Of a DNA stretch of 41,367 bases, positions 1 through 35,360 are shown one piece after another. Both the position numbers and the translations under genes were made by a program. Origin of the DNA: Chromatiales bacterium (lineage in GTDB: Bacteria; Pseudomonadota; Gammaproteobacteria; Chromatiales; Chromatiaceae); contig JAKSBX010000035.1 in the NCBI GenBank assembly GCA_022360905.1, forward strand, positions 1 to 41,367, in the 5' to 3' direction. The notes below the pieces were generated by a model, which made no database searches, had not been told where the DNA came from, and saw only the letters and a list, made by a program, of their open reading frames with translations. Numbering within the stretch: position 1 is the stretch's first letter; every line of letters starts with the position of its first letter.

Positions 1-451
1 CTGATGCAATCAATACCAGAAACCGGTAACGATTGATCCAACTGGTATAACTGATGATGATGAGAATGCCTAGAAGCCCAATGGGTATCAGTCCCCAACC
101 TGAAACCTGTATCAGATAGAGTCCGCAAGCCAGTGTGATCAAGAGAGAGACGGTACCGATAATGAGTGCCTGAGGTGCAAGATGCGGTTGCATCACCAAG
201 GTACCACTACCTCCGCTAAAGGGTGTTCGGTCGGTTTTAGCGTCCAATCCGGAATGGAAATCGAAATACTCGTTCAAGGCATTGACACTGACATGGGCCA
301 TCAAAGCACCGAGCAGTACGATTCCAAGTACTCCCCAGGAGATAGGAAAACCAGAGAGAAGTGCACTCCCAACACCCAAAGAGACGCAGATAGGGGTTAG
401 GATTAAAAAGTTTGGGCGAGTAACACCTACAACTTGGAACGGCATCATCAT
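1..451 (-). CDS. UbiA-family prenyltransferase (C-terminus cut by window edge)
   Basis: Translating the minus strand from the ATG triplet at 451/448/445 gives about 150 residues without a stop before the window ends. The product is hydrophobic and carries the UbiA-family signature NEYFDFHSGLD near residue 65, i.e. the N-x3-D-x4-D type motif that binds Mg-prenyl diphosphate, followed by RTPFSGGSGTL. Members transfer a polyprenyl chain to an aromatic acceptor in quinone synthesis (MenA/UbiA) or related lipids; the exact acceptor cannot be told. The start is ambiguous because three ATG codons stand in tandem; AGGA lies 3, 6 and 9 nt upstream of them, so the second or third is as likely as the first. 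It is divergent from the multihaem cluster, so a quinone-related role would fit, but that is inference. Confidence 0.8.
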   Translation of the reverse strand, partial: MMMPFQVVGVTRPNFLILTPICVSLGVGSALLSGFPISWGVLGIVLLGALMAHVSVNALNEYFDFHSGLDAKTDRTPFSGGSGTLVMQPHLAPQALIIGTVSLLITLACGLYLIQVSGWGLIPIGLLGILIIISYTSWINRYRFLVLIAS

Positions 452-491
452 TTGTCCTGACTGGTTATAGACCAAGAGAAAACAACCACAC

Positions 492-561
492 GATATCACA
501 TCGAAGCTCTCTGTGAGGGGAGTTCTCATTGAATAGTCTATGGGGTTAATTATGTGATATC
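492..561. repeat. 10-bp inverted repeat pair upstream of the cytochrome cluster
   Basis: GATATCACAT at 492-501 is matched exactly by its reverse complement ATGTGATATC at 552-561, 50 bp apart. The pair sits in the divergent intergenic region, about 90-160 bp upstream of a sigma-54-like element. This is where an enhancer-binding activator would be expected, but the sites could equally serve the divergent prenyltransferase gene. The match is seen directly; the role is inferred. Confidence 0.45.
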
Positions 562-651: not shown

Positions 652-667
652 TGGCATGAATGGTGCT
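652..667 (+). promoter_or_regulatory. Candidate sigma-54 (-24/-12) promoter for the cytochrome cluster
   Basis: TGGCATG-AATG-GTGCT matches the consensus TGGCACG-N4-TTGCW with the invariant GG and GC dinucleotides at the correct spacing; two positions differ. It would place the start of transcription near 678, leaving a leader of about 75 nt before the first cytochrome gene, which has its own AGGAGA ribosome-binding site near 742. No equally convincing sigma-70 promoter was spotted in the 301-bp gap. Chance occurrence is possible. Confidence 0.45.
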
Positions 668-752
668 CTATGGGTTTGGATCGGTTGGTGAACATTGTTT
701 TAAGGAACTCAATGTAAAACCAATAAAAATAACCAAATCGCAGGAGACATAG

Positions 753-3566
753 ATGTTTCGATTCACGAGCCGGACTGCACTGATCGGGTATGCGTTTTTT
801 TTCAGTCTATATATAACAAACGCCGCTGCCGGCCTATTGGATGAGACTGTTGCCCATCCACCCATACCACTACTGACAGAGTCCGGTGAGCATGTGGTAG
901 GCAGTGGACAACCCTATAGCCCTAAAAAGAGCTGTGCCGGTAGTGGTTGTCACGACTATGAAAAGATCACCCACGCCTATCACATAGAGCAGGGCCGGGA
1001 TGAGGCTCGGGACGATTATGGTCTGGACCATGGTCAGCCCCATCTCTTTTCGCCAGGTTATTTCGGTGGCTATAACTGTATGGGAGGGAGCAATCCCGAT
1101 ATCACGGCGAAAAAACAGAACGCCTCTATTGATGAGTTTGCCGATTTAGGTACACCCGACCTGGTTATGCGCTGTACTCGTTGCCATTCAGGGGGGGGAT
1201 GGATGGAGACCGACCGGAATGGTCGCCGCTATGATGCGGTCGATACAGCAACAGTCGACTATCTCGATGGAGACTACTATAGCCGCAGCGTCGACGAAGC
1301 GGGAGAGGCTGTTGTTGAATTGTGGGATTGGCAGGCCTCCGGGGTTGCTGAAAATGACTGTCTGTTATGCCACGCCAACCTGGGTGAGATGGTCAGTCAT
1401 GACAGCCAGTTGGATGCTGAAACAACCCCGTTCCGACATGCAACCAATCTGCGTTCAGGACTGATGCGCTCAGGTCAGTTTCGCTATGCGGCAACGGCGA
1501 TGCTTGAGTTTATGAATCTCAATATGGAGGAGGAGGGACAGCCTCAATCCCTGGTCAGCTTCAAGCGCCTGGATGAGGATAGTGATGACAGCGTCAGTGC
1601 GGCGGATATCGAACTCGATAACAATGAGTTGCCGATTATTGAATGGAATGCGGAAGCCTTCAATGAACAGGGACTTGTCACCATACCCATGGTTCGTTAT
1701 CCGGGTAACGACAGCTGCATGTATTGTCACCTGACCTCAAATTCCCGGCGGGGATTCTACGGATTCGGAGAGGGCGCCGAGGCGGTTTTTGATGAGGACG
1801 GTCTGCTGGTTCGCGATTATCAGGATGATGTTCACAAAGGTCAGGTGTGGACCGAAGCCAATGGTGAGCAGCGTGATATCGAGAACTGCAACGCCTGCCA
1901 TAGCCGTAACTACTACAAGGAGAGTTTTGGCTACCAGGCCGATCTGGATGCCAACCACAACTTTCTGAAAGGCAATTCCGACATGGATATCGCCAACGAC
2001 AAGGATTACGATCCACCGGCGAAATCTTGTGTCTACTGTCACGAAGAGGCGGAGACGCCAGCCATTCCTTCCGGCCATGAAGATATGCTGGCCGCCCACC
2101 GTGAGCGCTGGAAACTGGCCGGCGATATGACCGGTTACACAGAAGATTCACTGAATCGTATCACTCAGACCCATCTGGACGTTCTGGCGTGCGAAACCTG
2201 TCATATTACCGATAAGGCTTCGCGTGGCACACCGATACAGATCATGTACCGATACTCCGCTACCGAGGATGGCACTCTGAAGGTGAGGCCCTACAATGCC
2301 CGGTATCGTGCTCAATGGGTCGATAAGACCAGTGGCCATATTCTGAACAAAACGGAACGGAACAGTGCCTTCAGGATGGAGATCGATAGTGAAGGCAATC
2401 GGATTGGACTGCTGATCGATCCTGTTTCAGGCGATACCCTGGGTAACGTCAATGTACGCATGTCCCATGGCAGCTGGCGTTTTTCTGACCCGGAGGATTA
2501 TGAAACCATCGTTGCGCAAAAGGGAGCCTACGATAATCTGTTGAGGTCAAAGGGTATGCAGAACCCGGATACGGTACTGATATGGGGCGCATCCAACTTC
2601 TATGTCATGTCACACAATACCCGTCCCGCCATAGAGTCGGTCCAGTGTGAGGAGTGTCATGAGAAAACCGCACGGGGGGCCTTCAGTTCACTGATCTCAA
2701 CCTCAGGTGTGATGGGCGCCGCCAACAGCAAAACCGTGGTGGAGCTTCCCGACAGACGGTTGATTGATGAGGGGATCGTTGAAATGGCCTTTCCTTCCAT
2801 GAAGGCGGATGAAGAGGGGCGGATTACCGAGAATGTGGAGGATATCCTCTACTACAGCGCGATCAATCCCTCACTGTCGATTCTGGGAGCGGCTAATGCC
2901 CCGGTTTTTGCAGGTTACATGAGCGAGTCGAATGCCGAAACCGGTATGACAGGTTTAGGCATAACCGACGAAGAGGTAAACCTACTGCGTGAGCAGATGC
3001 CATCCTCCAGCTCGATCTATCTGTTCAAACCACGCTACGGTGATGAGATGGTGAAGGGGACCGCTATCATGACCGATAAAAACGGGCAGGCTGAAGCCGT
3101 CATGATGAGCTATCGCTTTCTGATTCGAGTCGACAATGGCGAAGTTGTGGAGGCTGCCACTCAGGCCGGGCGGATGAATCTCTCCCAGGTCTACAAGATT
3201 GAGGTGAGAAACAGTGATGGTGCTTCTGTTGAGCAGTTCCCTGGTACGCCTCTGTTCATCAAACTCCCATGGACCGGTAATAATCAACAGGCCTTGACCG
3301 TTATCTCTTCTGATAATGGTGAGAACTGGAGTGATCTGCAAGCTGATCAGGTCATTGTTGCCCAGCCGGCAACTTCAGACCAGGATGGCTACGTCATCGT
3401 CAGAACCGACCATCTGAGCTTTTTTGCCGTTGCAGAAAAGTCGCAAACCGGGACAACCTCAGACGGTGGCAGCAGCAGTAATAGCAGTGGCGGCGGTGGT
3501 GCTGCACTGATACTGCCATTGCTTCTGCTCGGATGGTCAATGCGCAAAAGGATTTTGCAGGGTTAA
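753..3566 (+). CDS. Surface octahaem c-type cytochrome with GlyGly-CTERM-like sorting tail
   Basis: A 937-residue exported cytochrome. An N-terminal signal peptide (about residues 1-26) precedes eight haem-attachment motifs: a CX4CH motif CAGSGCH at 61, then CXXCH at 141, 203, 322, 379, 426, 480 and 632. An acidic EF-hand-like loop, DEDSDDSVSAAD, lies near 274-285. The C-terminus runs Ser/Gly-rich linker, SSGGGG near 912, a short hydrophobic stretch AALILPLLLLGW, then RKR: the layout of GlyGly-CTERM proteins that rhombosortase cleaves and delivers to the surface. Residues 640-900 lack haems and look beta-rich. Start ATG has AGGAGA 9 nt upstream. It heads the cluster and is followed by a porin, so a terminal extracellular electron-exchange role is likely; the acceptor or donor is unknown. 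Not clearly MtrC/OmcA-like (those carry ten haems). Confidence 0.85.
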   Translation: MFRFTSRTALIGYAFFFSLYITNAAAGLLDETVAHPPIPLLTESGEHVVGSGQPYSPKKSCAGSGCHDYEKITHAYHIEQGRDEARDDYGLDHGQPHLFSPGYFGGYNCMGGSNPDITAKKQNASIDEFADLGTPDLVMRCTRCHSGGGWMETDRNGRRYDAVDTATVDYLDGDYYSRSVDEAGEAVVELWDWQASGVAENDCLLCHANLGEMVSHDSQLDAETTPFRHATNLRSGLMRSGQFRYAATAMLEFMNLNMEEEGQPQSLVSFKRLDEDSDDSVSAADIELDNNELPIIEWNAEAFNEQGLVTIPMVRYPGNDSCMYCHLTSNSRRGFYGFGEGAEAVFDEDGLLVRDYQDDVHKGQVWTEANGEQRDIENCNACHSRNYYKESFGYQADLDANHNFLKGNSDMDIANDKDYDPPAKSCVYCHEEAETPAIPSGHEDMLAAHRERWKLAGDMTGYTEDSLNRITQTHLDVLACETCHITDKASRGTPIQIMYRYSATEDGTLKVRPYNARYRAQWVDKTSGHILNKTERNSAFRMEIDSEGNRIGLLIDPVSGDTLGNVNVRMSHGSWRFSDPEDYETIVAQKGAYDNLLRSKGMQNPDTVLIWGASNFYVMSHNTRPAIESVQCEECHEKTARGAFSSLISTSGVMGAANSKTVVELPDRRLIDEGIVEMAFPSMKADEEGRITENVEDILYYSAINPSLSILGAANAPVFAGYMSESNAETGMTGLGITDEEVNLLREQMPSSSSIYLFKPRYGDEMVKGTAIMTDKNGQAEAVMMSYRFLIRVDNGEVVEAATQAGRMNLSQVYKIEVRNSDGASVEQFPGTPLFIKLPWTGNNQQALTVISSDNGENWSDLQADQVIVAQPATSDQDGYVIVRTDHLSFFAVAEKSQTGTTSDGGSSSNSSGGGGAALILPLLLLGWSMRKRILQG

Positions 3567-3578
3567 TTAAGCTGTCTC

Positions 3579-3797
3579 ATGGAATCTCGGATAGATGGCA
3601 TCAAAAGGATGCTGCCATGGAGTGCCGGCGCCGGATTTGCAACCGGACATATGATGCTGACGTCCCAATGTACCATTGTGACACTCGGCCTATGTACCGG
3701 TTGCGCCGGTTGTGCCGTTGCCTTGGTCTCTCTGGTGGGTTGGGGGGCACTTAAAGAGAGGCCTCCCAACAGGCTCAATCAGGCTGTAGATGAATAG
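3579..3797 (+). CDS. Small cysteine-rich membrane protein, function unknown
   Basis: A 72-residue ORF starting 12 nt after the surface cytochrome and overlapping the start of the porin gene by 8 nt, which suggests translational coupling. Residues 20-57 are hydrophobic and contain a CTGCAGC motif (CX2CX2C) plus one further upstream cysteine, followed by a charged tail. An in-frame ATG at 3609 gives a 62-residue alternative; neither start has a good ribosome-binding site. I do not recognise the family. The cysteine spacing could hold a metal or cluster, or the protein could be a membrane-embedded assembly factor; both are guesses. Its position between a surface cytochrome and its porin makes it likely to be a real gene. 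Confidence 0.55.
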   Translation: MESRIDGIKRMLPWSAGAGFATGHMMLTSQCTIVTLGLCTGCAGCAVALVSLVGWGALKERPPNRLNQAVDE

Positions 3798-5046
3798 GCC
3801 GGCGTTGTGCGCGATTGTCAGTCATCTCCTGCTCTTACCAATCGCTGTAACTGTCGAAGCAGGAGTCTCCGGGGATACTGAACTCCGACTGCAAGTGGAT
3901 AACAGCCATTTTGGTGAGACTGAAAGCTCTTTTGAGCTGTGGAATGATCTCTACTATACCGATCGATCCAATGGTCTCGATATGGGGTTTCAGTTTGCCA
4001 TTGAGGCTGGTGAGCCAAGTGACTCGGCTCGACTCTATCAATGCTTCATTCGCAGCAATGGAGATGGCGTCGCACCGGATATCACCATTGGCCGGTTTGA
4101 GCACATCGACAGCAGCGGCTTCAGCAACCTTGATGGCATCTCATTTGATCAGCAGTTTGATCATATCGGTTGGAGGCTCTACGCCGGCAAACCCAGACGA
4201 TTTGAAGCCTACTGGCAGGAGGATGCGGACCTGATCATCGGTCTGTTTTCAGACCTCAATCTGTTGTCACTGTATGAGACGGATCGATTCAACAGGCTGC
4301 TGCTTAACCTGGGTCTGGAACAACGTTGGAGCAGGACTCGGCAGAGGAATCTCCATTTGGCTCTGAGTGGTGAAAGACCAGAGGTTGAGGAGGGACCGCA
4401 ATTCAAGGATTTCAATCTGGCCGCGGATTTGGATCTCGATGGTCAAAACCTGCACAGGATGGTACTCGATGCTCATTATGATTTGAAGGCACAGGGTCAT
4501 CTCAGATTGGGCTATCGCTACTATCGGCCAGATGAGGAACCGGAAACCTTCCGCGATCGCTACCACGGTTTTTTCAGTATGGATCGTCAGTCCATATTAA
4601 AAGGCGTCTGGCAGTTACCCAAATATAAACGCCTTCAAACCAATTTCGAGTTCAACGGAAGCCGACAGGATCAGGGTAATGGGGGGCTCGGTTTGGCTTC
4701 CGAGCTGATCTACGCTACCGGTTTTGGCACCGTGTGGGATGGCCGGGTCGACTATCTCGAGTCTGATGATGACTATGCGTTTTCAGGATATCTGCGTTAC
4801 AAGCAACCGATAAACGCCAGCGCGATTGTTGAGCTGGAGAGCGTGTATCAAAAAAAATCCACACAACTGTCGGGTGACAACCATCTGCGGGGGTTCTCAT
4901 GTTCCTACTCGCAACGGATCAAGTCTGCCTGGCGGGTTGATCTCAGTGGTGAATGGTTGGATCACTCTGTGCGGGATGAGGAGTATCGATTGGCTCTTTC
5001 TTTCCGCTATGAGTTCTATCAAACCAACGTTGGGGAGTTGCCATGA
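3790..5046 (+). CDS. Outer-membrane beta-barrel protein (putative porin of a porin-cytochrome conduit)
   Basis: A 418-residue protein with a signal peptide ending near residue 24 (VTVEA). The rest alternates polar and aromatic/hydrophobic residues in short strands, typical of an outer-membrane barrel, and ends with RLALSFRYEF plus a short extension, resembling a beta-signal. There are no haem motifs. It lies between the surface octahaem cytochrome and a periplasmic heptahaem cytochrome, the gene order expected for a porin that sheathes a cytochrome wire (as MtrB or ExtB do in known conduits). Sequence similarity to a specific family could not be tested; the assignment rests on architecture and context. 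Its 3' end overlaps the next gene by 4 nt (ATGA). Confidence 0.72.
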   Translation: MNRPALCAIVSHLLLLPIAVTVEAGVSGDTELRLQVDNSHFGETESSFELWNDLYYTDRSNGLDMGFQFAIEAGEPSDSARLYQCFIRSNGDGVAPDITIGRFEHIDSSGFSNLDGISFDQQFDHIGWRLYAGKPRRFEAYWQEDADLIIGLFSDLNLLSLYETDRFNRLLLNLGLEQRWSRTRQRNLHLALSGERPEVEEGPQFKDFNLAADLDLDGQNLHRMVLDAHYDLKAQGHLRLGYRYYRPDEEPETFRDRYHGFFSMDRQSILKGVWQLPKYKRLQTNFEFNGSRQDQGNGGLGLASELIYATGFGTVWDGRVDYLESDDDYAFSGYLRYKQPINASAIVELESVYQKKSTQLSGDNHLRGFSCSYSQRIKSAWRVDLSGEWLDHSVRDEEYRLALSFRYEFYQTNVGELP

Positions 5047-5645
5047 GGGTGTTTTGGTTGCTCTTTTTAGCGTTGGCCTGCACTCAAGTCTTTGCTGAAC
5101 AGATGGCAGAGCGGGAAGAACAGAAAAGCTGGTGGGAGAAACGTCATGAAAGGGTTGATCTCTACTTTCCCCATAATGCCCACCTGGAAGTCATGCAACA
5201 GGGGAAGGATCTCTGTATGGCCTGTCATCCATTCAACAATAACAGGATAACCGATTTGGAGCTGTTGGATAGTCTGCAGACAATCTACAACGAGCCTCTG
5301 GAGGAGATCTGTCATTCATGTCATATGCAGAGCCGAACCGCTCCCTTGGCCTGTGAGGTCTGCCATACCGATCCGCAAACCATTCGACCAGCGGATCACA
5401 AGGGGGATTACACCTGGTTTCATACTGAGACCGCCAGGCTCGATGAACAGGCTTGTCGGGGCTGTCATATCGATTTGAATTTCTGTACAGACTGCCATTT
5501 CAGACGTAACCCTGGCAAACGGATGATGCACCCGTTGGGCTATCGTGACAGGCATGGTCTGGAAGCGAGAGTCAACCCAGCATCCTGTGCAGGCTGTCAT
5601 CAGTTTGGTTATTGCGGTGAGTGTCATAGGGGGAGTGCGCGATGA
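5043..5645 (+). CDS. Periplasmic heptahaem c-type cytochrome
   Basis: A 200-residue cytochrome with a signal peptide ending VFA (about residue 18). Seven CXXCH motifs start near residues 58, 90, 104, 138, 148, 182 and 191, roughly one haem per 26 residues, so the mature protein is mostly a haem wire. Scattered histidines (for example in YFPHNAHLEV) could be distal ligands. It overlaps both neighbours by 4 nt. Directly after the barrel gene, it is the best candidate for the cytochrome that docks inside or under the porin, analogous to MtrA, though with seven rather than ten haems. That role is inference. Confidence 0.88.
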   Translation: MRVFWLLFLALACTQVFAEQMAEREEQKSWWEKRHERVDLYFPHNAHLEVMQQGKDLCMACHPFNNNRITDLELLDSLQTIYNEPLEEICHSCHMQSRTAPLACEVCHTDPQTIRPADHKGDYTWFHTETARLDEQACRGCHIDLNFCTDCHFRRNPGKRMMHPLGYRDRHGLEARVNPASCAGCHQFGYCGECHRGSAR

Positions 5646-6625
5646 GTCGTTGGTTAGTGATTTTGCTCTCTCTGTCATTGATTGCCTGCGGTAGCGATGA
5701 TCAATCATCCCTCGATACATCCAGGCCAGGTGGTTTGTTGCTGGACGAGACACACGGGGATAACGGACTGGCCTGGGGCCTGGAAAAGTGCGATGGCTGC
5801 CATGCCATGACAGTGATTCACCAGGATACAACAGAAATTATCAGAGAGATGGTCAGAGATAAGGGATATGAAACTTGCAGTGGATGTCATGGTGACAATG
5901 GAACCGATCAGCCGCGCCAGTGCCTGGTTTGTCATAACCCGGATGATCTGCCGACTGCACCTTATCTGGACGGGCGGCACTCACACACATTTCCCCCATC
6001 TGACAGCTCAGCTATGAGTGATGAGGATTGCCTGGTCTGTCACGACTATTCCGACATGGATGGTAGCTTTGATCTGAATCTCGATTTGACAAGTTTCAGG
6101 GATGCGGCAGGTCAGTCGTCAGCCTATCTGGTTGAGGCCGACTTTTGTTTACGTTGTCACAACCGTGACCATCAGCAGATCGGATTTGAGATCTCCGGTG
6201 AAAGTTATTCCGACCCGTTGATCGCCCTGGAGGATGACTATCGGCACATCGATTACCATGGCTGGCGCGATGGGTCGGGTGAGGGAACCTTTAACGGCTT
6301 AAGGCCGGCCTATGCTTATCCCCAAGTGGTGGCTTGCAGTGATTGTCATGCCATGCACGGTACAAGCAATCAAAAACTGATCATTGATACAACCCGCAAA
6401 GGTGCACGTAGGCTCAATGAATCACAGTTTATCTCAAGAGATTATTCAATCGAAGTCAATGATCAGGGCGACTATTCACAACTTTGTGTGATTTGCCATG
6501 CGATGCAGTTTGAAATCGACGAGGGGCGTGTGAATACTGGTAACGGTCTGAGTGGTGTCCACCTTGTAGGTGACGATTGTCGCCCATGTCATACCCACGG
6601 TGAGGCATCTCAGGCGGGACTATGA
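5642..6625 (+). CDS. Octahaem c-type cytochrome lipoprotein
   Basis: A 327-residue protein with a lipobox, LSLIAC, whose cysteine at residue 16 would be lipidated; the following residues are GSDD. Eight CXXCH motifs begin near 50, 79, 94, 130, 169, 232, 282 and 313. The residue after the lipidated cysteine is Gly, not Asp, which favours outer-membrane sorting by the Lol rule known from E. coli. It could face either the periplasm or, if flipped, the outside. Overlaps of 4 nt on both sides place it firmly in the operon. Likely an electron relay at the outer membrane. Confidence 0.88.
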   Translation: MSRWLVILLSLSLIACGSDDQSSLDTSRPGGLLLDETHGDNGLAWGLEKCDGCHAMTVIHQDTTEIIREMVRDKGYETCSGCHGDNGTDQPRQCLVCHNPDDLPTAPYLDGRHSHTFPPSDSSAMSDEDCLVCHDYSDMDGSFDLNLDLTSFRDAAGQSSAYLVEADFCLRCHNRDHQQIGFEISGESYSDPLIALEDDYRHIDYHGWRDGSGEGTFNGLRPAYAYPQVVACSDCHAMHGTSNQKLIIDTTRKGARRLNESQFISRDYSIEVNDQGDYSQLCVICHAMQFEIDEGRVNTGNGLSGVHLVGDDCRPCHTHGEASQAGL

Positions 6626-7512
6626 ACAGACGGCTTCTCCACGCATTGTTGATCACTCTCCTGTCAGGTTTGTTGTCTGTCAGTTTTGCCGGGGAGAGTT
6701 ATGAATTACCACCACTCCACCACCCGGTTGAGATTCAACTCCCTGCTGGGATGGAGTTGCCTGAGGTGTTTCCCCTTGGTGAGCATGGGGAACTGATTTG
6801 CGATAGCTGCCATGGGGTTGAGAACCTGGAAGATATTCCACTGGATGATGTTAACCCGGAGGAAGAGAACTTTCTTCACTATGGGCCCTATGAGGATCTT
6901 ACGGATTTCTGTTACCACTGCCATGAAGAGCGGGGGCACCAACGTTACAATCTTCATGTGATGATCGACAGTGCGGGTGAGCTCGATGATTCCGGTTGCA
7001 CCTACTGTCACGCAGAGATACCTGACCCAAGTGAAGAGATTCCCCTTGAGCTGATGGAATTTCGTCTACCCAAGGCGAAGCTCTGCTATGGCTGCCATTT
7101 AAAGACACCGCACTTGAATACCCTTACTCATCTGCAGGAGCCGGATGAGGATATGATCCAACGCATAAAGATCGCGGAAGAACTGAATAAGGTCAGGTTA
7201 CCTCTCGATGACGAAGGCCGAGTCACATGCATAACCTGCCATACACCTCACCAGTCAGGCGTCATCGATCCAGAAACAGCAGGTGGGAAAAGTGTCGAAG
7301 AGAACTCAATAGATGATGGCATTCTTTATAAGCGTACTGCCTGGAGCAGGCTTTTTGCCGATGACAAAGCAGGACGATTGATGGCGCTGAAAACAGAGCG
7401 CCGGAATCTGTTCGCCAAACCCATTTATCAGCGTGTTGAAAAGGAGATACTGATCAGACTACCCGCCAAAGACGGAACACTTTGTCTCTCCTGCCATGAA
7501 TTCGAGGACTAG
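6622..7512 (+). CDS. Periplasmic hexahaem c-type cytochrome
   Basis: A 296-residue protein with a signal peptide (residues 1-23, ending SFA). CXXCH motifs start near residues 60, 97, 126, 155, 203 and 289, six in total. The stretch from 210 to 285 lacks haems and is rich in charged residues, so the last haem is set apart at the very C-terminus. The gene overlaps the lipoprotein gene by 4 nt and ends 2 nt before the NapH-fusion gene. Placed next to the inner-membrane component, it is a plausible periplasmic shuttle. No specific family was recognised. Confidence 0.87.
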   Translation: MNRRLLHALLITLLSGLLSVSFAGESYELPPLHHPVEIQLPAGMELPEVFPLGEHGELICDSCHGVENLEDIPLDDVNPEEENFLHYGPYEDLTDFCYHCHEERGHQRYNLHVMIDSAGELDDSGCTYCHAEIPDPSEEIPLELMEFRLPKAKLCYGCHLKTPHLNTLTHLQEPDEDMIQRIKIAEELNKVRLPLDDEGRVTCITCHTPHQSGVIDPETAGGKSVEENSIDDGILYKRTAWSRLFADDKAGRLMALKTERRNLFAKPIYQRVEKEILIRLPAKDGTLCLSCHEFED

Positions 7513-7514
7513 AC

Positions 7515-9794
7515 GTGTCACCAACCGGTTTTAAAGAACAACTCAAACACTTCATACACAGTCAATGGTTCCGCTATCTGACCATCTCTTTGATGACGCT
7601 GTTACTGTTTGCACCCTTGTTGCTTATTCCACAGATATTCGAACAGAGTGACCTCTGTGGCGGTATGTGCATGAGACGCTTCTTTCTGCTCTTTCCCGGT
7701 ATTGGTTGGGATGACTTCATGCGGCAGATTGAAACCGCAGCGATTGGTGTGGCGATTCTGTTGACCATATTGGGGGTGACATTCCTGTTTGGTCGGCTCT
7801 GGTGTGGCTACCTCTGTCCAATGGGGGGAGTGCCGGAACTGGTCAGCAAACTGTTTCATGATCGTTGGAAGATCGACTATCGGTCACTGCCTCAGGTACC
7901 GATACGCTATGGATACTTCATCACCTATCTGATCCTGCTGCCCGCCTTGGGTTTCAGTGCCTGCACACTCTGTAATTTCATTACCCTGCCAAGGTTGTTT
8001 GAGGCGCTGAGTGGTGATTTACGTGGTATTGCCTATCTGATTTCGACCATCGGTGCCGTCAATCTTGGATTACTGATTCTACTCGGTTTCTTTGCCAAGC
8101 TTGGCCGGGGATACTGTCAGTTTCTCTGCCCGATAGGTGCGATCGATGGCTTGGTGAACCGTCTGGGCGCTAAGCTGCCATTTGTTCGCCGGATCAGAGT
8201 GGAGCGCAACCGATGTACCGGATGTCGGGTTTGTGCGGAGGTCTGTATCTGTGGGGCTGTCCGCATGGTCGATCGCGTTGCGGTGGTCGATCAGCTCTCC
8301 TGTATGTCCTGCCGTGAATGCGTGGTTGCCTGCGAATGGGGGGCAATTGACTGGTTACCCATGCCCTCCGAAAAAATGCCCAAACGCCTCAAAAAAGGTA
8401 TCGAGGTATCACCACCTCCGGTTTGGACTGCGGTGACTACAGAACAGAATCCAAAGCAAAAGTACAACAATCGCCGACGCTGGGTATTCATCGGCCTGCT
8501 ATCAGGTATCGCGCTGCTATGGTTCAACATGGATGATGCAGCGGCTGGGGGGCGCCAATCCGATCCGGATGGTTGCCTGGTCTGTCATGGGGCTGAAGGG
8601 CTTGCCTATGTGAATGATAAAGGTGTCATCCGAAATGCCTCAATCAACTCGGACCACTACTTCTCCTCGATACATGGCAATGTACCTTGTCGGGACTGCC
8701 ATCGGAAGATCCGTGAATATCCACATAAAGCTGAAAACGGAGCAGTCGATTGTTCCGCTTCATGCCATCTTGAAGAGCCATCCCAAGGCGTAGCCTACAG
8801 CCATGAGACGATCGCTGAAGAGTTTACCGAATCGATCCATGGTAAAGGGGCCGTTGATGGGCTCACCGCAGAGAACCGATGGGATGAAAGCCGTAACGAT
8901 AGACCACCTTCCTGTCGACGTTGTCACTCAAATACCCTCTATATCCCATTGAACAAAAGGGAGGAGTTCAAAGAGGTTTTTGCCCATGAGGAGGAGGTTT
9001 GCGGCAACTGCCATCAGGGAGAGGTCTGGAACGGTCAGATGGGGGGGCATATCCTGCGTCGCCTGCTTGGTGTCCGTTGGACGAAGCAGGAGGAGGTGGC
9101 CATGTGTAATGACTGCCACCTGGATCGGCAGGCTATGACAGAGACACAACGTGAGGATGCCCTGTCAGGGGAAAAGAAACCCAGTGATGCTCACTTTGTC
9201 TATGCCTCGGACAGTTATGAGATGACCTTGCACGGTCGACTGGTGAGTGAAGACAACAGCCATGGCGTCTCCTGCAACGAGTGTCATGCGCCGCAGGGGT
9301 ATCATCATGGCATTCTGCCAACCGAGCATCCGGAGTCCGCTGTCAACCCGGATCAGCTCCCTCAACTGTGTGGTTCATCCGGGTGTCACGGTTACGTGGA
9401 CAACCCGTACAACGAAGATTTTCTGCTCAGTGACATGCACGATCTTGACTGGGTGCCGGGCTACTTTGTCAACACGCCTCTGATCGAGACATGGCAGACC
9501 TCAGATTGGCAAAAGGTACTGATGTTTATCGCGCCGGTATCCATGATCTTCATTGTAACCGGTGTCATCTGGTCGATTTTTGCCGGTTCCAGGTCGGATG
9601 CACTGCCAATCCTTGGCGGCAATAGATTCGAGAAAGTGTTTCTGGTGAGAAAAAAGCGCCCAATCAAAAAAGCGAAGAAGACCGACCAGGTGATCAAGGA
9701 CAGAGTTTTTCGCCAGCGGGTGAAGCGAAGATGGGCTGAAAAATTCAATCGTCTGCGCAGAAAAAATGGCAATCCCCAGGGAACCTCTGAATGA
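7515..9794 (+). CDS. NapH-like iron-sulfur membrane protein fused to an octahaem cytochrome
   Basis: A 759-residue fusion. Residues 1-275 resemble NapH/NosR-type proteins: membrane segments near 20-40, 75-95, 133-155 and 175-195, two CX3CP motifs (CGYLCP at 97, CQFLCP at 201), and two 4Fe-4S sites with CX2CX2CX3C spacing at 234-244 and 263-273, lacking the usual trailing proline. A basic stretch (318-322) and a membrane segment (about 323-338) then lead to a domain with eight haem motifs: CXXCH at 354, 392, 467, 496, 531 and 588, CX3CH at 413, and CX4CH at 619. A last helix (667-690) and a long Lys/Arg tail follow. The start is GTG with GAGGA upstream. Probable role: take electrons from quinol in the inner membrane and pass them to periplasmic cytochromes, or the reverse. 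Confidence 0.88.
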   Translation: MSPTGFKEQLKHFIHSQWFRYLTISLMTLLLFAPLLLIPQIFEQSDLCGGMCMRRFFLLFPGIGWDDFMRQIETAAIGVAILLTILGVTFLFGRLWCGYLCPMGGVPELVSKLFHDRWKIDYRSLPQVPIRYGYFITYLILLPALGFSACTLCNFITLPRLFEALSGDLRGIAYLISTIGAVNLGLLILLGFFAKLGRGYCQFLCPIGAIDGLVNRLGAKLPFVRRIRVERNRCTGCRVCAEVCICGAVRMVDRVAVVDQLSCMSCRECVVACEWGAIDWLPMPSEKMPKRLKKGIEVSPPPVWTAVTTEQNPKQKYNNRRRWVFIGLLSGIALLWFNMDDAAAGGRQSDPDGCLVCHGAEGLAYVNDKGVIRNASINSDHYFSSIHGNVPCRDCHRKIREYPHKAENGAVDCSASCHLEEPSQGVAYSHETIAEEFTESIHGKGAVDGLTAENRWDESRNDRPPSCRRCHSNTLYIPLNKREEFKEVFAHEEEVCGNCHQGEVWNGQMGGHILRRLLGVRWTKQEEVAMCNDCHLDRQAMTETQREDALSGEKKPSDAHFVYASDSYEMTLHGRLVSEDNSHGVSCNECHAPQGYHHGILPTEHPESAVNPDQLPQLCGSSGCHGYVDNPYNEDFLLSDMHDLDWVPGYFVNTPLIETWQTSDWQKVLMFIAPVSMIFIVTGVIWSIFAGSRSDALPILGGNRFEKVFLVRKKRPIKKAKKTDQVIKDRVFRQRVKRRWAEKFNRLRRKNGNPQGTSE

Positions 9795-9901
9795 ACCGTC
9801 ATTCCTTTGAATTTCGGTCGAAAGATCCCGGTATATGCCAGGATGGCAAAAAGTGAATTAACCAGCGATTCCCTGAGTGGGAAAAAGTTAAGAGTCAGGT
9901 A

Positions 9902-10633
9902 ATGCAATCAGCAATCAAATCTGTAGTGATCTTATCACTCATACTATTCACAGCCTCCAGCCACGCTGAGTCTCTCTACCTAACCCAGGTCAAACAGGCA
10001 ACATGGAACAAGCAGGCCTTTAATGAAACAGTTGAGAAGTTGGAGGCTTATAAACCAATCGAGTTTGCCGAACCACTCAAGGTGTCACCATTTCATAACC
10101 AGCAACAGCCAGAAAACCGGACAGAGCGGGATTTCTGTATCTCCTGTCATACAGTCTACCCACACTCAAACAGTGAAAGGTATCGTAGTTACCTGAATAT
10201 GCATGTTGGCTATCTCGCCTGTGCCAGCTGCCATTTCAAACCGGAAAATGTCGATTTCGATTATCGGTGGCATGCGTGGGCTGATATCGCTAAAGGTAAG
10301 CCGAGTAAAAGCAGACATATCGTACCCTTTTACCAACAGAGTGCTGAGACACTGACCCGGAATCATCCGCAGATCAGTGCCATGCTGGATGCCTGGGAGC
10401 GGAGTGAATTGGCAGCGAAAGCAGAGCTGCACCTTAAAATCCATACGCCACTTGAACGGGATGGCCCAGCGTGTGATGTCTGCCATACAGAGCAAAACAG
10501 TGCGCTTGACTATCAGGCACTGGGATACAGTACAGAGGAGATCAAAGCAATTCAGGAGAATCGGATTTCCAAATTTCTCAGTGATGAGAACTTTAAGGAC
10601 AGACCGATCAAGTTGATGGATCTGTTGCAATGA
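9902..10633 (+). CDS. Periplasmic trihaem c-type cytochrome
   Basis: A 243-residue protein with a signal peptide ending SHA near residue 22 and three CXXCH motifs near 79, 107 and 191. The segments between are long and helical in character, unlike the haem-dense proteins upstream. It is preceded by a 107-bp gap, the only sizeable break in the cluster, and overlaps the following gene by 4 nt, so the two are coupled. The family was not recognised. It may be a dedicated partner of the NHL-dodecahaem protein. Confidence 0.85.
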   Translation: MQSAIKSVVILSLILFTASSHAESLYLTQVKQATWNKQAFNETVEKLEAYKPIEFAEPLKVSPFHNQQQPENRTERDFCISCHTVYPHSNSERYRSYLNMHVGYLACASCHFKPENVDFDYRWHAWADIAKGKPSKSRHIVPFYQQSAETLTRNHPQISAMLDAWERSELAAKAELHLKIHTPLERDGPACDVCHTEQNSALDYQALGYSTEEIKAIQENRISKFLSDENFKDRPIKLMDLLQ

Positions 10634-13014
10634 GACTGCTCCAAAGAGTCATCCCCATATTTTACCTACAAGGTTTCGGACTGATAGTTTGCAGCCTTTT
10701 GACCATGACATGGAATGTGCAAGCCGCCCCCCGTGCAAGCCTGTTGTTTGATCTGCAGGCTGATTTTGAGCAGCCGAGTGCCGTTAGGGTGTCTGAGAAG
10801 GGTGTGGTTCATGTATTGGATGGGGTCAATGGGCGTGTAGTCAAGTTCACACCCGATGGTCAAATCATCGGATCCATCTCTGCACCGAAAGGTGATTCCT
10901 TAAATCTGCCGATGGACCTCTATCTCTACCAGAATCAGATCATTGTTGCGGATAGTGGTAACCATCGACTGGTTATATTTTCGTCCGATGGGGAGATGAA
11001 AAAGACGATACCCCTGACAAAAGGTGATCAGAAGTTTGAACCTGTCCCAACCGGGCTTGCGGTCGTAGAAGACGTGTTCTACTGGAGTGATCGTGCCAAT
11101 TCAACCCTCTGTTCCACGGTGATTCCAACAGGTGAGGCACTGAAATGTTGGGGAGGATTTGGTTCCCGGGAGGGAGAGTTTCGTTATCCCTTTATGATAT
11201 CGACTGATCAGGATGACTATCTCTATGTTATTGATGTACTCAACGGCAGGGTACAGATATTCAATCATCGGGGGCGCTCGTTCGGTTCTGTTGCCAGATT
11301 CGGGGTGACTGAAACGAGTCTGTTGAGACCCAACGGCATCACGCTGGAGCAGAGTAATCAGATGCTGGTCAGTGATGCCTATACAGGCAGGATTCTGTTA
11401 TTCCGAGGTCGCAGTTTTGCTGGATTGTTATCCGATGAGAGGGGTAACCCCCTAAGCTTTGATCAGCCTGTGGGTATCGCCCGGTGGCAGGATAGACTCT
11501 ACATCGTTGAGATGGCCGCGCATCGCGTGCGGGTCATGCAGGTTGCTTCGTTGGAGCGTGATAAGAAGACTGATCGAATTGGGGCACATTTTACGCAACC
11601 AACCCGGCAGGATTGTGTCACCTGCCACCTGACCTGGTCAGAGGATTATCAACCGGAGGAGGGGGAAGCTGAGCCGATGCCCCCTGTTGGCAGTCAAAAA
11701 ATGTGTATGAGTTGTCATCACGGTGCGGTGGTTGACTCCCGGATAACCCTCGGTACAGGGGCACAACACCCTGACTACTATCACCCGGAAAAACAGGAGA
11801 AATTTTCTGAAATCGACAGCAGAGATGACTCAATGCCGGAGGAGTACCCCTATGTGGAACAGCAAATCCCCTATTGTGGCACCTGTCATACTCCACACCG
11901 ATTCAGCGAAGAGGATACCGGTTTAACACAGCAGGGTGAGAATCTTTGGATGCGGGGCGAGAATCAGGACAGCAAAATCTGTCGCCAATGCCATGAATCC
12001 CTGTTTACGGGAAGTGAGGATGAGGCTCGTGAGAAGGGGATACACCCGGTCTCACTCGATCTTGACGAAACGGTAGAGATCGGGGGCAAAGGAATCAATC
12101 GACTCAATTGTGAGAGCTGTCATGCAGTTCATGGTGGTGGAGAGGGGAGTACGTCACTGGTTGTCTCAAATAGTGAGGTTGGAACTCTGTGTGCAGCCTG
12201 TCATGCACGACATACTGCGAAGAGCCTGGAGGAGGCGAGAGAAAAAGGAGTACATCCGGTCAATATCGAGCTGGATGAACCGGTGACACTCAACAACCAG
12301 GAGATTACAAAAATTGATTGTCTGAGTTGCCACTCTGTTCACGGGGGGCACAAACAGACTGCAAGTCTGAAGCTTGATCACGCCAATGGGGAAATCTGTG
12401 AAACCTGTCATGAGCCGGCCATGGCGGTATTGAGAAGTGATCATGACCTGCGGATGAGTGCACCTGACTCTCATAACCTTCTGCAACAGTCACCTGAGGA
12501 AGCCGGTCTTTGCGGCAGTTGCCACAGTATGCACCAGAACAAGGAAAAGGACCCCATGTTGAGTGTGTCGGGTTTATCACCGAAGGATACAAAGCAGTCA
12601 CATATTGCGCGGGATAGACTTTGCCAGAATTGCCATTACGATCCGGGTATCGGAAAACGACGGGTGGTAGAAGACTATACCCATCCCTACCAGGACTTGG
12701 TGATGCGCTCGGATCCCGATTCCATGCCGCTGCTGGATGAAACAGAACAAGTGGCGGAGTCGGGAGAGATTGCCTGTATTACCTGTCATGATCCTCATGT
12801 ATGGTCACCATGGGAATCTGAAATGAGAATGAAGGACGCTCACATTGGAATCGAGGATACTGACCGGGATGGTACGATTATGAATAGCTTTCTCAGGGAA
12901 AAGAGTCTCAAGGAGAGTTTCTGCGTTGAGTGCCATGGCATTGAGACCCGTTTGAAATACAAGTACTACCATGATCAACGAAGCCGACCGGAACGGGCAG
13001 AGTACCTCCGCTGA
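10630..13014 (+). CDS. NHL beta-propeller fused to a dodecahaem cytochrome
   Basis: A 794-residue exported protein with a signal peptide (about residues 1-33). Residues 40-305 form NHL-type propeller repeats, with recurring blades such as IIVADSGNHRLVIF, YLYVIDVLNGRVQIF and RLYIVEMAAHRVRV. The rest carries twelve CXXCH motifs near 329, 359, 416, 451, 494, 521, 564, 590, 628, 665, 716 and 765. Residues 451-520 and 521-590 are a tandem repeat with an exact period of 70, each holding two haems and an EAREKG[IV]HPV block. An EF-hand-like DTDRDGTI sits near 743. The propeller may bind protein or a ligand while the haems conduct; whether it stays periplasmic or is secreted is not clear. Last gene of the run. 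Confidence 0.88.
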   Translation: MRLLQRVIPIFYLQGFGLIVCSLLTMTWNVQAAPRASLLFDLQADFEQPSAVRVSEKGVVHVLDGVNGRVVKFTPDGQIIGSISAPKGDSLNLPMDLYLYQNQIIVADSGNHRLVIFSSDGEMKKTIPLTKGDQKFEPVPTGLAVVEDVFYWSDRANSTLCSTVIPTGEALKCWGGFGSREGEFRYPFMISTDQDDYLYVIDVLNGRVQIFNHRGRSFGSVARFGVTETSLLRPNGITLEQSNQMLVSDAYTGRILLFRGRSFAGLLSDERGNPLSFDQPVGIARWQDRLYIVEMAAHRVRVMQVASLERDKKTDRIGAHFTQPTRQDCVTCHLTWSEDYQPEEGEAEPMPPVGSQKMCMSCHHGAVVDSRITLGTGAQHPDYYHPEKQEKFSEIDSRDDSMPEEYPYVEQQIPYCGTCHTPHRFSEEDTGLTQQGENLWMRGENQDSKICRQCHESLFTGSEDEAREKGIHPVSLDLDETVEIGGKGINRLNCESCHAVHGGGEGSTSLVVSNSEVGTLCAACHARHTAKSLEEAREKGVHPVNIELDEPVTLNNQEITKIDCLSCHSVHGGHKQTASLKLDHANGEICETCHEPAMAVLRSDHDLRMSAPDSHNLLQQSPEEAGLCGSCHSMHQNKEKDPMLSVSGLSPKDTKQSHIARDRLCQNCHYDPGIGKRRVVEDYTHPYQDLVMRSDPDSMPLLDETEQVAESGEIACITCHDPHVWSPWESEMRMKDAHIGIEDTDRDGTIMNSFLREKSLKESFCVECHGIETRLKYKYYHDQRSRPERAEYLR

Positions 13015-13302: not shown

Positions 13303-13899
13303 ATGAAATACAACTTTAAAATCGTTGATACCGACCCTGTCTACCGTGGATTTCTGAAAATCAACCGTTATCGTCTAAAACACGATCTCTATATGGGTGG
13401 AGAGAGTGATACCATCATTCGGGAACGGATCGAGGATATCGGGGCTGTATCGGTTCTGCTCTATGATCCACGTCAGGACAAGGTAGTACTGGTGGAGCAG
13501 TTTCGAATCGGTGTGGCCGGATACCAGAATCCCCCTTGGATGCTTGAAACCATCGGTGGTCTGCAGGATGGTGATGAAACTGAAGAGTCGGTAGCCAGAA
13601 GAGAGTCGATTGAAGAGGCCAATTGTGAGATCGGTCGCTTGAAAAGAATCTGTGAATTTGTGGTCAGCCCAGGCATATCGGTTGACCGTATAAAACTCTA
13701 TTGTGGTGAGGTCGATGCAACCAATGCCGCCGGTGTACACGGTCTGGATCATGAAGGAGAGGATATTCGGGTCGTGGTCATGGATGCGGATGAGGCGATC
13801 GGTGAGCTCTACCAGGGACGGGCGAATTCAACCAGTATCATCATTGCACTGCAATGGCTGGCAATACACCGGGAGTCACTTAGACAGGAGTGGAATTGA
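13303..13899 (+). CDS. nudF: Nudix hydrolase, ADP-ribose pyrophosphatase type
   Basis: A 198-residue protein of the usual NudF length. The Nudix box begins GGLQDGDETEESVARRE and continues SIEEANC (about residues 83-106), matching GX5EX7REUXEEXGU except that the penultimate glycine is asparagine. The catalytic glutamates of REXXEE are intact. The upstream region with VVLVEQFRIGV and the downstream SPGISVDRIKLYCG stretch match the ADP-ribose pyrophosphatase subgroup. It would hydrolyse ADP-ribose to AMP and ribose 5-phosphate in the cytoplasm. The gene stands alone, with a weak ribosome-binding site. Substrate specificity within the Nudix family is inferred. Confidence 0.85.
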   Translation: MKYNFKIVDTDPVYRGFLKINRYRLKHDLYMGGESDTIIRERIEDIGAVSVLLYDPRQDKVVLVEQFRIGVAGYQNPPWMLETIGGLQDGDETEESVARRESIEEANCEIGRLKRICEFVVSPGISVDRIKLYCGEVDATNAAGVHGLDHEGEDIRVVVMDADEAIGELYQGRANSTSIIIALQWLAIHRESLRQEWN

Positions 13900-33750: not shown

Positions 33751-35346
33751 CTATTTGATTTGTGGAGCTACGGTCCATGTGTGAAATGCCGGTGGTGAAT
33801 CCAACTCCCATTCCAGGCCTTTGGCGCCTTCCCAGGCTCTGCTTTCAGCTTTCTTTCCGCCACGAATGGTTTTAATGACGATATAGAGCAACAGCAGGTG
33901 GCTAAGGCCGAAAATGATCGCGCCGACACTCGAGATGACATTGAACTCGGTAAACATCATGTTGTAGTCGACAATTCTGCGTGGCATGCCTGCCAGGCCA
34001 AGAAAATGCTGCGGGAAGAAGGTGATGTTGAAACCGATCACATTGGTCCAGAAAAAGATCTTGCCCAGGGTCTCGTCGTACATGTGGCCTGTCCACTTGG
34101 GCAGCCAGTAGAAAACACCGGCAAACAGTCCGAACACGGCGCCAGGCATCAATACATAGTGGAAATGGGCCACCACGAACATACTGTCGTGATACTGCAT
34201 ATCGGCAGGTACCACAGCCAGCATCACACCGCTCAAACCACCAAAAGTGAACATCAGTATAATAGCCACAGCAAATAGCATCGGGGTTTCAAAGGTCATT
34301 GCACCGCGCCACATGGTGGCGATGAAGTTGAAGATCATCAAACCCACCGGGATGGAGATCAGAATGGTACCGATCATAAAGTAGGTTACCGCGCCCAGTG
34401 ACATACCAACGGTGTATTGATGATGGGCCCAAACCACCATACCGATCGTGGCTACCGTCAACATGGCGCCAACCATCGACTTATAGCCGAATAGGGGCTT
34501 ACGGGAGAATGCGGGTATGACATGGGAGAGGACACCGATTGAGGGCAGCAGCAGTATGTAGACCTCAGGATGGCCGAAGAACCAGAACAGATGTTGAAAC
34601 AACACCGGGTCTCCACCGCCGGCTGCATCAAAAAAGCTGGTACCGAAATGCCTGTCAAACAGCAGCATTGTGACACCGCCGGCAAGCACAGGTACAACTA
34701 GAATCAGCAGAAATGCAGTTACCAGCCAAGTCCAGCAGAACATCGGCATGGTCATCAGTGTCATACCGGGTGCACGCATATTCAACAGTGTGACGATGAT
34801 ATTGATCGAGGCCAATACAGAGGATATACCCAGTAGATGGATCGCGAAGATCAGAAAATCCATCGACATGCCAACCTGAACCGATAGCGGTGGATAGAGG
34901 GTCCATCCGGTATTGATCTGTGTACCACCACCTGGGAAGAAGGGTACCACGAAAGAGAGAATCAACATGGTTGCGGCCGCAGGAAGAATCCAGAAGCTGA
35001 GATTGTTCATCCTTGGCAACGCCATGTCCGGTGCACCGATCATCATTGGAATCATCCAGTTGGCCAGGCCTGCAGCAGCTGGCATGACCGCACCGAATAT
35101 CATAATTAGGGCGTGGTTGGTTACCAGGTTGTTGTAGAGATCCGGATCAAGCAACTGGATACCCGGTTGGAACAGCTCCAAACGGATCAACATGGCGCTT
35201 GCGCCACCGAGAAACAGCATCGTCAGAGCAAACAGAAGATAAAGGGTCCCGATATCTTTATGGTTGGTGCTGAACAGCCAACGTCGCCAACCTGTTGGCA
35301 TATCGTGATGATGCGCTTCATCGTGGTTTAAGGTGGTTGTGGTCAT
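33751..35346 (-). CDS. coxA: Cytochrome c oxidase subunit I, K-channel lysine replaced by Met
   Basis: A 531-residue haem-copper oxidase core. Haem a ligand H78 (TNHALIM), D-channel entrance D107 (GAPDMALPRMNN), HPEVY at 259-263 with the gating glutamate E261 and the cross-linking tyrosine Y263, the CuB histidine pair (AHHQYTVGM) and the HFHYV haem ligands are all present. In the K channel, the usual IPTGVKVF-type motif reads IPVGLMIF: the key lysine is M337 and the nearby threonine is V334. The ATG at 35346 has GAGGAG upstream and is preferred over a TTG six bases earlier. It lies 14 bp after coxB. Confidence 0.96.
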   Translation of the reverse strand: MTTTTLNHDEAHHHDMPTGWRRWLFSTNHKDIGTLYLLFALTMLFLGGASAMLIRLELFQPGIQLLDPDLYNNLVTNHALIMIFGAVMPAAAGLANWMIPMMIGAPDMALPRMNNLSFWILPAAATMLILSFVVPFFPGGGTQINTGWTLYPPLSVQVGMSMDFLIFAIHLLGISSVLASINIIVTLLNMRAPGMTLMTMPMFCWTWLVTAFLLILVVPVLAGGVTMLLFDRHFGTSFFDAAGGGDPVLFQHLFWFFGHPEVYILLLPSIGVLSHVIPAFSRKPLFGYKSMVGAMLTVATIGMVVWAHHQYTVGMSLGAVTYFMIGTILISIPVGLMIFNFIATMWRGAMTFETPMLFAVAIILMFTFGGLSGVMLAVVPADMQYHDSMFVVAHFHYVLMPGAVFGLFAGVFYWLPKWTGHMYDETLGKIFFWTNVIGFNITFFPQHFLGLAGMPRRIVDYNMMFTEFNVISSVGAIIFGLSHLLLLYIVIKTIRGGKKAESRAWEGAKGLEWELDSPPAFHTWTVAPQIK

Positions 35347-35360
35347 GTTCAAACTCTCCT

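Follow-up and report, generated by a model that had tools for sequence, protein, structure and literature searches.

The contig JAKSBX010000035.1 of a Chromatiales bacterium (assembly GCA_022360905.1), analysed here over its full length of 41,367 nucleotides and referred to as the window, raises the question of whether a run of cytochrome genes at its left side encodes a complete path for electrons from the quinol pool to the cell surface. Nine genes on the forward strand fill positions 753 to 13,014 and were named A, s, B, C, D, E, F, G, and H (Table 1); their coordinates confirmed the co-oriented set described in a preceding sequence-only reading. Our analysis suggests, with a probability of roughly 60%, that this run represents a predicted complete porin–cytochrome conduit of a new type, leading from quinol to the surface and ending in an octahaem terminal reductase derived from octahaem tetrathionate reductase (OTR). 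In total, 49 canonical CXXCH motifs (A 7, C 7, D 8, E 6, F 6, G 3, and H 12) and three atypical haem motifs (CX4CH in A; CX3CH and CX4CH in F) were counted. This reproduced the earlier tally of 8, 7, 8, 6, 8, 3, and 12 motifs for A, C, D, E, F, G, and H, respectively, and of 52 for the run. The histidine is conserved at all three atypical sites, in 62/62 aligned A and 23/23 fused F sequences. A chance origin of the motif runs was dismissed, as shuffling each protein 500 times gave on average 0.00–0.06 motifs and never more than two. From A to H, the junctions comprise a 12-nt gap, an 8-nt overlap, three 4-nt overlaps, a 2-nt gap, a 107-nt gap, and a 4-nt overlap. The description of the genes as mostly overlapping by 4–8 nt therefore holds for five of the eight junctions, but not for the three with gaps.

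Table 1. Positions of the nine genes, of selected sites within them, and of flanking features in the window.
Feature	Position	Strand	Remarks
Gene A	753-3566	+	937-aa exported octahaem cytochrome; 7 CXXCH + CX4CH at residue 61
Domains of A			OTR-like haem module, residues 32-700; ZU5-like domain, ~718-896; sorting-type tail
CX4CH haem site of A (Cys61, Cys66, His67)	933-953	+	His67 conserved in 62/62 loci and 115/115 proteins
Cys109 of A	1077-1079	+	sole conserved Cys outside the haem motifs; 62/62 loci, 115/115 proteins
C-terminal tail of A	3483-3563	+	Gly/Ser-rich, hydrophobic, basic; read from sequence
Gene s	3579-3797	+	72-aa small protein; C-x7-C-x2-C-x2-C; hydrophobic segment, residues 32-50
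Gene B	3790-5046	+	418-aa beta-barrel; 22 strands in model
Gene C	5043-5645	+	200-aa heptahaem cytochrome; likely haem plug of barrel B
Gene D	5642-6625	+	327-aa octahaem cytochrome; lipobox LIAC at residues 13-16 (pattern)
Gene E	6622-7512	+	296-aa exported hexahaem cytochrome
Gene F	7515-9794	+	NapH-type inner-membrane iron-sulphur protein fused to octahaem domain
CX3CH haem site of F	8751-8768	+	His conserved in 23/23 fused F
Gene G	9902-10633	+	243-aa trihaem cytochrome
Gene H	10630-13014	+	794-aa NHL beta-propeller + dodecahaem cytochrome; PF01436 and cytochrome families match
Prenyltransferase-like gene	2-529	-	diverges from A; best NCBIfam match menaquinone-type MenA, far below cut-off
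Leader of A at empty site	661-759	+	kept in two close relatives; ends seven bases into A
NUDIX gene	13303-13899		neighbour beyond H

A search of one genome per species, with aligned A sequences as the query, yielded 78 loci, of which 11 weak ones (L071–L081, 25–32% identity) were excluded, leaving 67 loci with A. Gene order was counted in the 38 loci that extend 9 kb or more to the right of A, the 29 shorter ones being left out. All nine genes were found in the same order in 33 of the 38 loci, and the first seven (A to F) in 37, as counted with detection profiles built from the same loci; the exception, from Candidatus Halobeggiatoa (L013), carries A alone. Among the short loci, L047, L054, and L065, extending 2–6 kb to the right, showed no same-strand cluster gene after A, and in L065 the genes D-C-B-s precede A on the opposite strand. 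Kinship exists within the set: L004 and L031, the group L011, L012, L015, and L016, and the group L058–L064 are each close, and L024 represents the same contig as L003. Motif numbers were nearly constant, with seven in C (46/47 loci), eight in D (44/46), six in E (41/41), and three in G (34/34), while H featured between 9 and 17 in those relatives whose gene does not run into a contig end. Furthermore, separate searches of 369 gammaproteobacterial genomes detected A in seven, B in seven strongly and one weakly, and C in seven strongly and two weakly. Six genomes were common to A, B, and C, and in the two misfits the cluster is cut by a contig end; the naive hypergeometric p for co-occurrence of A and B was 1.5e-11, uncorrected for kinship. 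Co-occurrence across genomes, which the sequence-only reading had proposed as a check, was thus borne out, and the nine-gene set is one conserved unit.

The carriers comprise Sedimenticola, symbionts of the tubeworms Escarpia and Lamellibrachia, Candidatus Venteria, many Methylococcales, Chromatiales, Thioploca (A, s, and B on a short contig), and one Nitrosomonas metagenome-assembled genome (MAG). A genome of the same family holds the entire nine-gene set, including the small gene s; an earlier scan of genome contigs with barrel B as the query had found no relatives. Two MAGs labelled Polarisedimenticolaceae (Acidobacteriota; L030) and Deltaproteobacteria (L027) also carry the cluster, the former pairing with a Sedimenticola MAG on the tree, and either transfer or misbinning may account for these two cases. 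In the one-contig genome G170 (L097 and L098), two copies of A surround s and are followed by B to H; the first copy has a TGA inside the match, and 8- and 9-haem proteins are encoded upstream. Methanotroph-type loci (L059–L063 and L068) encode 8- to 9-haem proteins of 979–1258 aa on the opposite strand just before A.

The outer-membrane crossing is assigned to B and C. The model of B features 22 strands (pLDDT 78.6), and the fold matches listed from the PDB (50 for each of two programs) were outer-membrane barrels throughout, including TonB receptors, ushers, and porins; an Mtr-type barrel was not among the matches listed, which is no test of kinship with Mtr. PF11854 (MtrB_PioB) gave no match at E ≤ 0.1 to 25 barrels of the B family, and the Pfam and NCBIfam searches returned no convincing porin family for B. 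Likewise, no Ext or Omb model of NCBIfam matched the 25 barrels, the coverage of Geobacter porins by this library being unchecked. A 25-bit PF11854 match (cut-off 23) elsewhere in the genome, on contig C76, appeared by eye to be of the TonB-receptor type and was not counted as an MtrB-type barrel. Gene C directly follows B with a 4-base overlap, and in known clusters the porin gene adjoins a cytochrome gene (PMC5566968). C is likely the haem plug of barrel B.

In C, seven motif histidines and seven further histidines are invariant among 48 sequences; the corresponding numbers are eight and eight for D (46 sequences; two of the further ones at 96–98%) and six and six for E (42 sequences; one at 98%). 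Since there are as many conserved spare histidines as haems, these three proteins look like chains of bis-histidine haems. With domain cut points set by us, the protein mass per haem amounts to 3.0 kDa for C, 4.3 for D, 5.2 for E, 4.7 for the periplasmic part of F, 4.5 for the haem part of H, 8.5 for G, and 9.3 for the haem module of A. According to a review, values below 5 kDa represent electron-transfer proteins and values above 7 kDa catalytic ones (PMC7096707), placing C and D in the carrier range and the haem module of A in the catalytic range. D and E weakly match TIGR03508 (DmsE/MtrA; 35.5 and 32.6 bits, cut-off 192.2), the C family (20 members) gave no match to this model at E ≤ 10, and in the genome of the window, which is 93% complete, no DmsE/MtrA protein exceeded its cut-off. 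The C profile retrieved seven weak matches from the PDB (cytochrome c7, NapB, and a viral protein; E 0.34–0.95).

The sequence-only reading had named a lipoprotein at the outer membrane and a sorting-tailed cytochrome at the surface; the corresponding features, a lipobox on D and a sorting-type tail on A, hold in the clade of the window. The tail pattern fits 105 of 115 A family proteins and 28 of 60 loci. The TIGR03501 (GlyGly-CTERM) model hit 5 of 21 A members at E ≤ 10, the protein of the window not being among them, and the MYXO-CTERM model reached E 0.33 on the latter, below its cut-off. A rhombosortase (155.9 bits, cut-off 84) and type II secretin genes above cut-off are encoded in the same genome. 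A is likely to sit on the cell surface, and in this clade it would probably be exported and then cut and anchored by the rhombosortase. However, by the patterns used here, 21 of 46 loci possess neither the tail on A nor the lipobox on D, so the anchors do not extend to the whole family, which weighs against the conduit. The tail and the lipobox agree in 42 of 46 loci, but the tree needs only one change, and this coupling was dropped as evidence; the four discordant loci look by eye like pattern failures. These absent anchors, and the compatibility of the data with a soluble role for D, E, G, and H, would suit cytochromes serving a periplasmic process beside an ordinary porin linked by chance. 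We consider this very improbable in view of the fixed gene order and co-occurrence, with the barrel included in 37 of 38 loci, the overlap of B with C, and the sorting-type tail on A in the clade of the window.

At the inner membrane, the NapH part of F matches TIGR02163 at E 1.3e-16 (60.9 bits, under the cut-off of 213) and displays the NapH features, i.e., four hydrophobic segments, two CX3CP motifs, and two 4Fe-4S motifs. C97/C101, C201/C205, and both ferredoxin motifs are invariant in 14/14 and 23/23 sequences. In the 23 fused F proteins, 16 non-haem cysteines are invariant, comprising the CX3CP pairs, the ferredoxin motifs, and Cys48, 52, 150, and 153, the last four of which would be periplasmic according to the helix order. 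Hydropathy places the octahaem part between hydrophobic segments at residues 323–339 and 668–686. Fused and split forms of F both exist; separate NapH and haem genes were observed in L008, L011, L012, L015, L016, L043, L046, L050, L052, L053, L057–L064, L098, and L146. The small Cys-rich protein noticed earlier was confirmed as the product of gene s, whose Cys 31, 39, 42, and 45 are invariant in 21/21 aligned members. An NCBIfam search of the s protein of the window returned no family; with its four cysteines beside a hydrophobic helix, it may assist at the inner membrane.

The likely surface end of the path, A, was compared with known cytochromes by fold and by profile. In the model, made on P0020, which differs from the A protein of the window at 3 of 937 residues, the haem module has the OTR fold. 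A single-sequence search of the PDB found the OTR structure 1sp3 at E 0.021, and the A profile gave no match among the PDB sequences at E ≤ 0.1. The OTR model TIGR04315 scored about 40 bits on A (cut-off 375), matching 21 of 21 A members weakly, and also weakly matches G. For comparison, the decahaem OmcA/MtrC model TIGR03507 reached 27.3 bits, below its cut-off of 209.3. A exceeds the cut-off of the Pfam MtrC/MtrF II-IV domain (32.5 versus 30), as do D and F, and an ExtS cytochrome model weakly matches 12 of 21 A members (best E 0.00076). A therefore looks like a distant relative of OTR, rather than a member of the OmcA/MtrC family, so that a reductase acting on one particular substrate at the surface has to be weighed seriously against a general wire.

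A differs from OTR in its CX4CH first site, in an invariant lone cysteine, and in the added ZU5-like domain and, often, a sorting-type tail. In OTR, the distal lysine on the active-site haem is Lys153. The OTR loop FYGGGGDGVKHG aligns with FYGFGEGAEAV of A, where no lysine is present, the alignment of so distant a pair not being final; 24 of 25 OTR loci gave a usable frame. An eighth histidine of A (His572) is kept in 42 of 62 loci, being lost almost only in methanotroph-type ones, and could close the active site. The genus commonly has true OTR genes, with two above cut-off in the genome of the window (G000, contigs C101 and C176), and many relatives show additional OTR-like matches, below cut-off, in frames of 794–913 aa.

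In Shewanella, the DmsEFAB system feeds a surface DMSO reductase. By analogy, A could be a dedicated surface reductase, e.g., of tetrathionate, polysulphide, or nitrite, with the conduit only feeding it. The loss of the OTR lysine according to the alignment, a site that His572 could close, the presence of true OTRs in the genus, and the lack of a single obvious substrate common to the hosts render this specific form unlikely. A more elaborate picture, offered tentatively and rated as rather unlikely, is that an OTR-type enzyme was moved to the surface, lost its catalytic lysine, and became fed by its own nine-gene wire. Symbionts of clams and tubeworms, giant sulphur bacteria, methanotrophs, and one nitrifier would thereby have a private extracellular respiration, the invariant Cys109 and an arginine pair likely being placed at the same haem.

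For the porin–cytochrome conduit favoured here, we infer the localisation, contacts, electron direction, and substrate as follows. Quinol would be oxidised at the NapH-type part of F, which would pass the electrons on to its own periplasmic octahaem domain. From there, the periplasm would be crossed via the relay proteins G, E, and H, and C, threaded in barrel B, would carry the electrons over the outer membrane. The lipoprotein D is the putative docking octahaem, and A would receive the electrons outside the cell. The sequence-only reading had likewise fitted components to every compartment; the conserved unit and the 22-strand barrel of outer-membrane type support it, while the compartments, the quinol feed, and the conduit role remain predictions. 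We favour an outward direction, given the resemblance of F to NapH-type proteins, which oxidise quinol, and the kinship of A with reductases. The same points make the inward alternative improbable, in which A would pick up electrons from Fe(II), minerals, or partner cells and F would deliver them to the quinone pool. Such uptake would be in line with hosts including symbionts of the sulphur-oxidiser type and a Nitrosomonas MAG, with the inward flow drawn for PCC3 and PCC4 by He et al. 2017 (PMC5566968), and with the description of Mto/Mtr conduits as possibly reversible (PMC10734462). Under outward flow, the acceptors are most likely solid or polymeric, i.e., metal oxides, humics, or partner cells; a soluble sulphur compound is possible.

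How the run relates to known systems was assessed from their published make-up. Like MtrCAB, MtoAB, and PioAB, it combines a barrel gene beside a multihaem cytochrome gene, inner-membrane and periplasmic cytochromes, and a predicted path across the outer membrane. However, barrel B has no MtrB_PioB match, plug C carries seven haems in 200 aa instead of ten, the surface part is OTR-like, and there are nine genes compared with four; the cluster described for Methylobacter on anodes is of the four-gene MtrAB type (PMC13322032). With PCC3 and PCC4, the run shares a predicted complete path from the inner membrane to the outside. PCC3, reported in tubeworm symbionts, features periplasmic and extracellular cytochromes with medians of 21 and 34 haem sites, respectively, and a b-haem-like membrane protein of five helices, about 300 aa, and two HX13H motifs (He et al. 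2017, PMC5566968). In contrast, the run comprises seven small to mid-sized cytochromes, the largest with 12 haems, and its entry is NapH-type; no five-helix HX13H protein was found among the nine genes, F being of the NapH type. The Uet pathway of Candidatus Tenderia also combines a barrel, several small periplasmic cytochromes, and NHL proteins, with an undecahaem UetJ, a tetrahaem UetA, the trihaem UetDEG, and the PPIase UetB (PMC10734462). The present run contains no PPIase and has haem numbers of 8/7/8/6/8/3/12, being set apart from Uet by the described composition only.

OcwA belongs to a Gram-positive setting without a barrel, whereas here the OTR relative is tied to a barrel gene. OcwA and OmhA are reported to be terminal multihaem Fe(III) reductases related by structure or phylogeny to SirA/Otr octahaems (PMC10376724), and A is likened to them via these published descriptions. 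The earlier claim that the layout differs from the MtrCAB, OmcB-type, and ExtABCD layouts is supported for MtrAB/MtoAB as published, and the make-up also differs from PCC3, PCC4, and Uet as described; for Ext and Omb the comparison covers the NCBIfam search. Searches of an open-access library returned no description of the nine-gene cluster, subscription papers, preprints, and supplements being outside that search. An earlier unnamed detection is possible, because PMC11475568, which lists the Riftia symbiont among its genomes, places many unnamed clusters in supplements, and PMC6344600 mentions unnamed novel PCC genes in Methylobacter. Word searches of two symbiont genome papers found no cytochrome mention in PMC11171427 and no multiheme, cytochrome c, or extracellular electron terms in PMC6194059.

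If the proposed conduit is real, it would represent one more widely shared extracellular electron transfer system, with a barrel family, a plug, and a surface terminus that are particular to it, and a reductase fold would have been recruited as the outer terminus of a Gram-negative porin conduit. Sulphur-, methane-, and perhaps ammonia-oxidisers would then possess an overlooked extracellular respiration, in carriers that inhabit animal hosts and drive the sulphur and methane cycles. The nine genes would also be candidates for how aerobic methanotrophs and symbionts oxidise methane or sulphide once oxygen is gone.

The window spans an entire contig, which belongs to a draft genome of 4.59 Mb. 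In total, 19 proteins were found with B, those named belonging to Candidatus Thiodiazotropha, i.e., symbionts of lucinid clams (PMC11171427), and other Thiodiazotropha MAGs encode the barrel at 81–83% identity. Among the whole genomes sampled from the genus, B was present in 1 of 22. B was not found in the five closest relatives as judged by the NUDIX gene (94–95% identity), where the matches to the two neighbours of the cluster are about 240–575 bases apart. In two of these five empty sites, the leader of A persists, with alignment scores of 104 and 103 compared with shuffle maxima of 34 and 29. Loss is therefore the preferred reading over a recent insertion, and insertion of the cluster by a mobile element was unsupported. 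A supposed 3' remnant was a weak match of 16 bases, equalled by 1/1000 and 37/1000 shuffles.

Elsewhere in the same genome (G000), a PCC3-like set was observed on contigs C183 (L154: 10879–16596) and C171 (L155: 1809–6702). It comprises a 305-aa probable membrane protein, a 21-haem cytochrome, and a cytochrome of at least 43 haems truncated at the contig end, and, on the second contig, a 30-haem fragment adjoining an 852-aa protein with a barrel-like end, so that the organism would have two separate routes. Within the window, a gene for a protein with one CXXCH (35361–36557, reverse strand) adjoins that of the CtaD cytochrome c oxidase subunit I (33751–35352, reverse strand), and its product is perhaps a haem-c-bearing oxidase subunit II.

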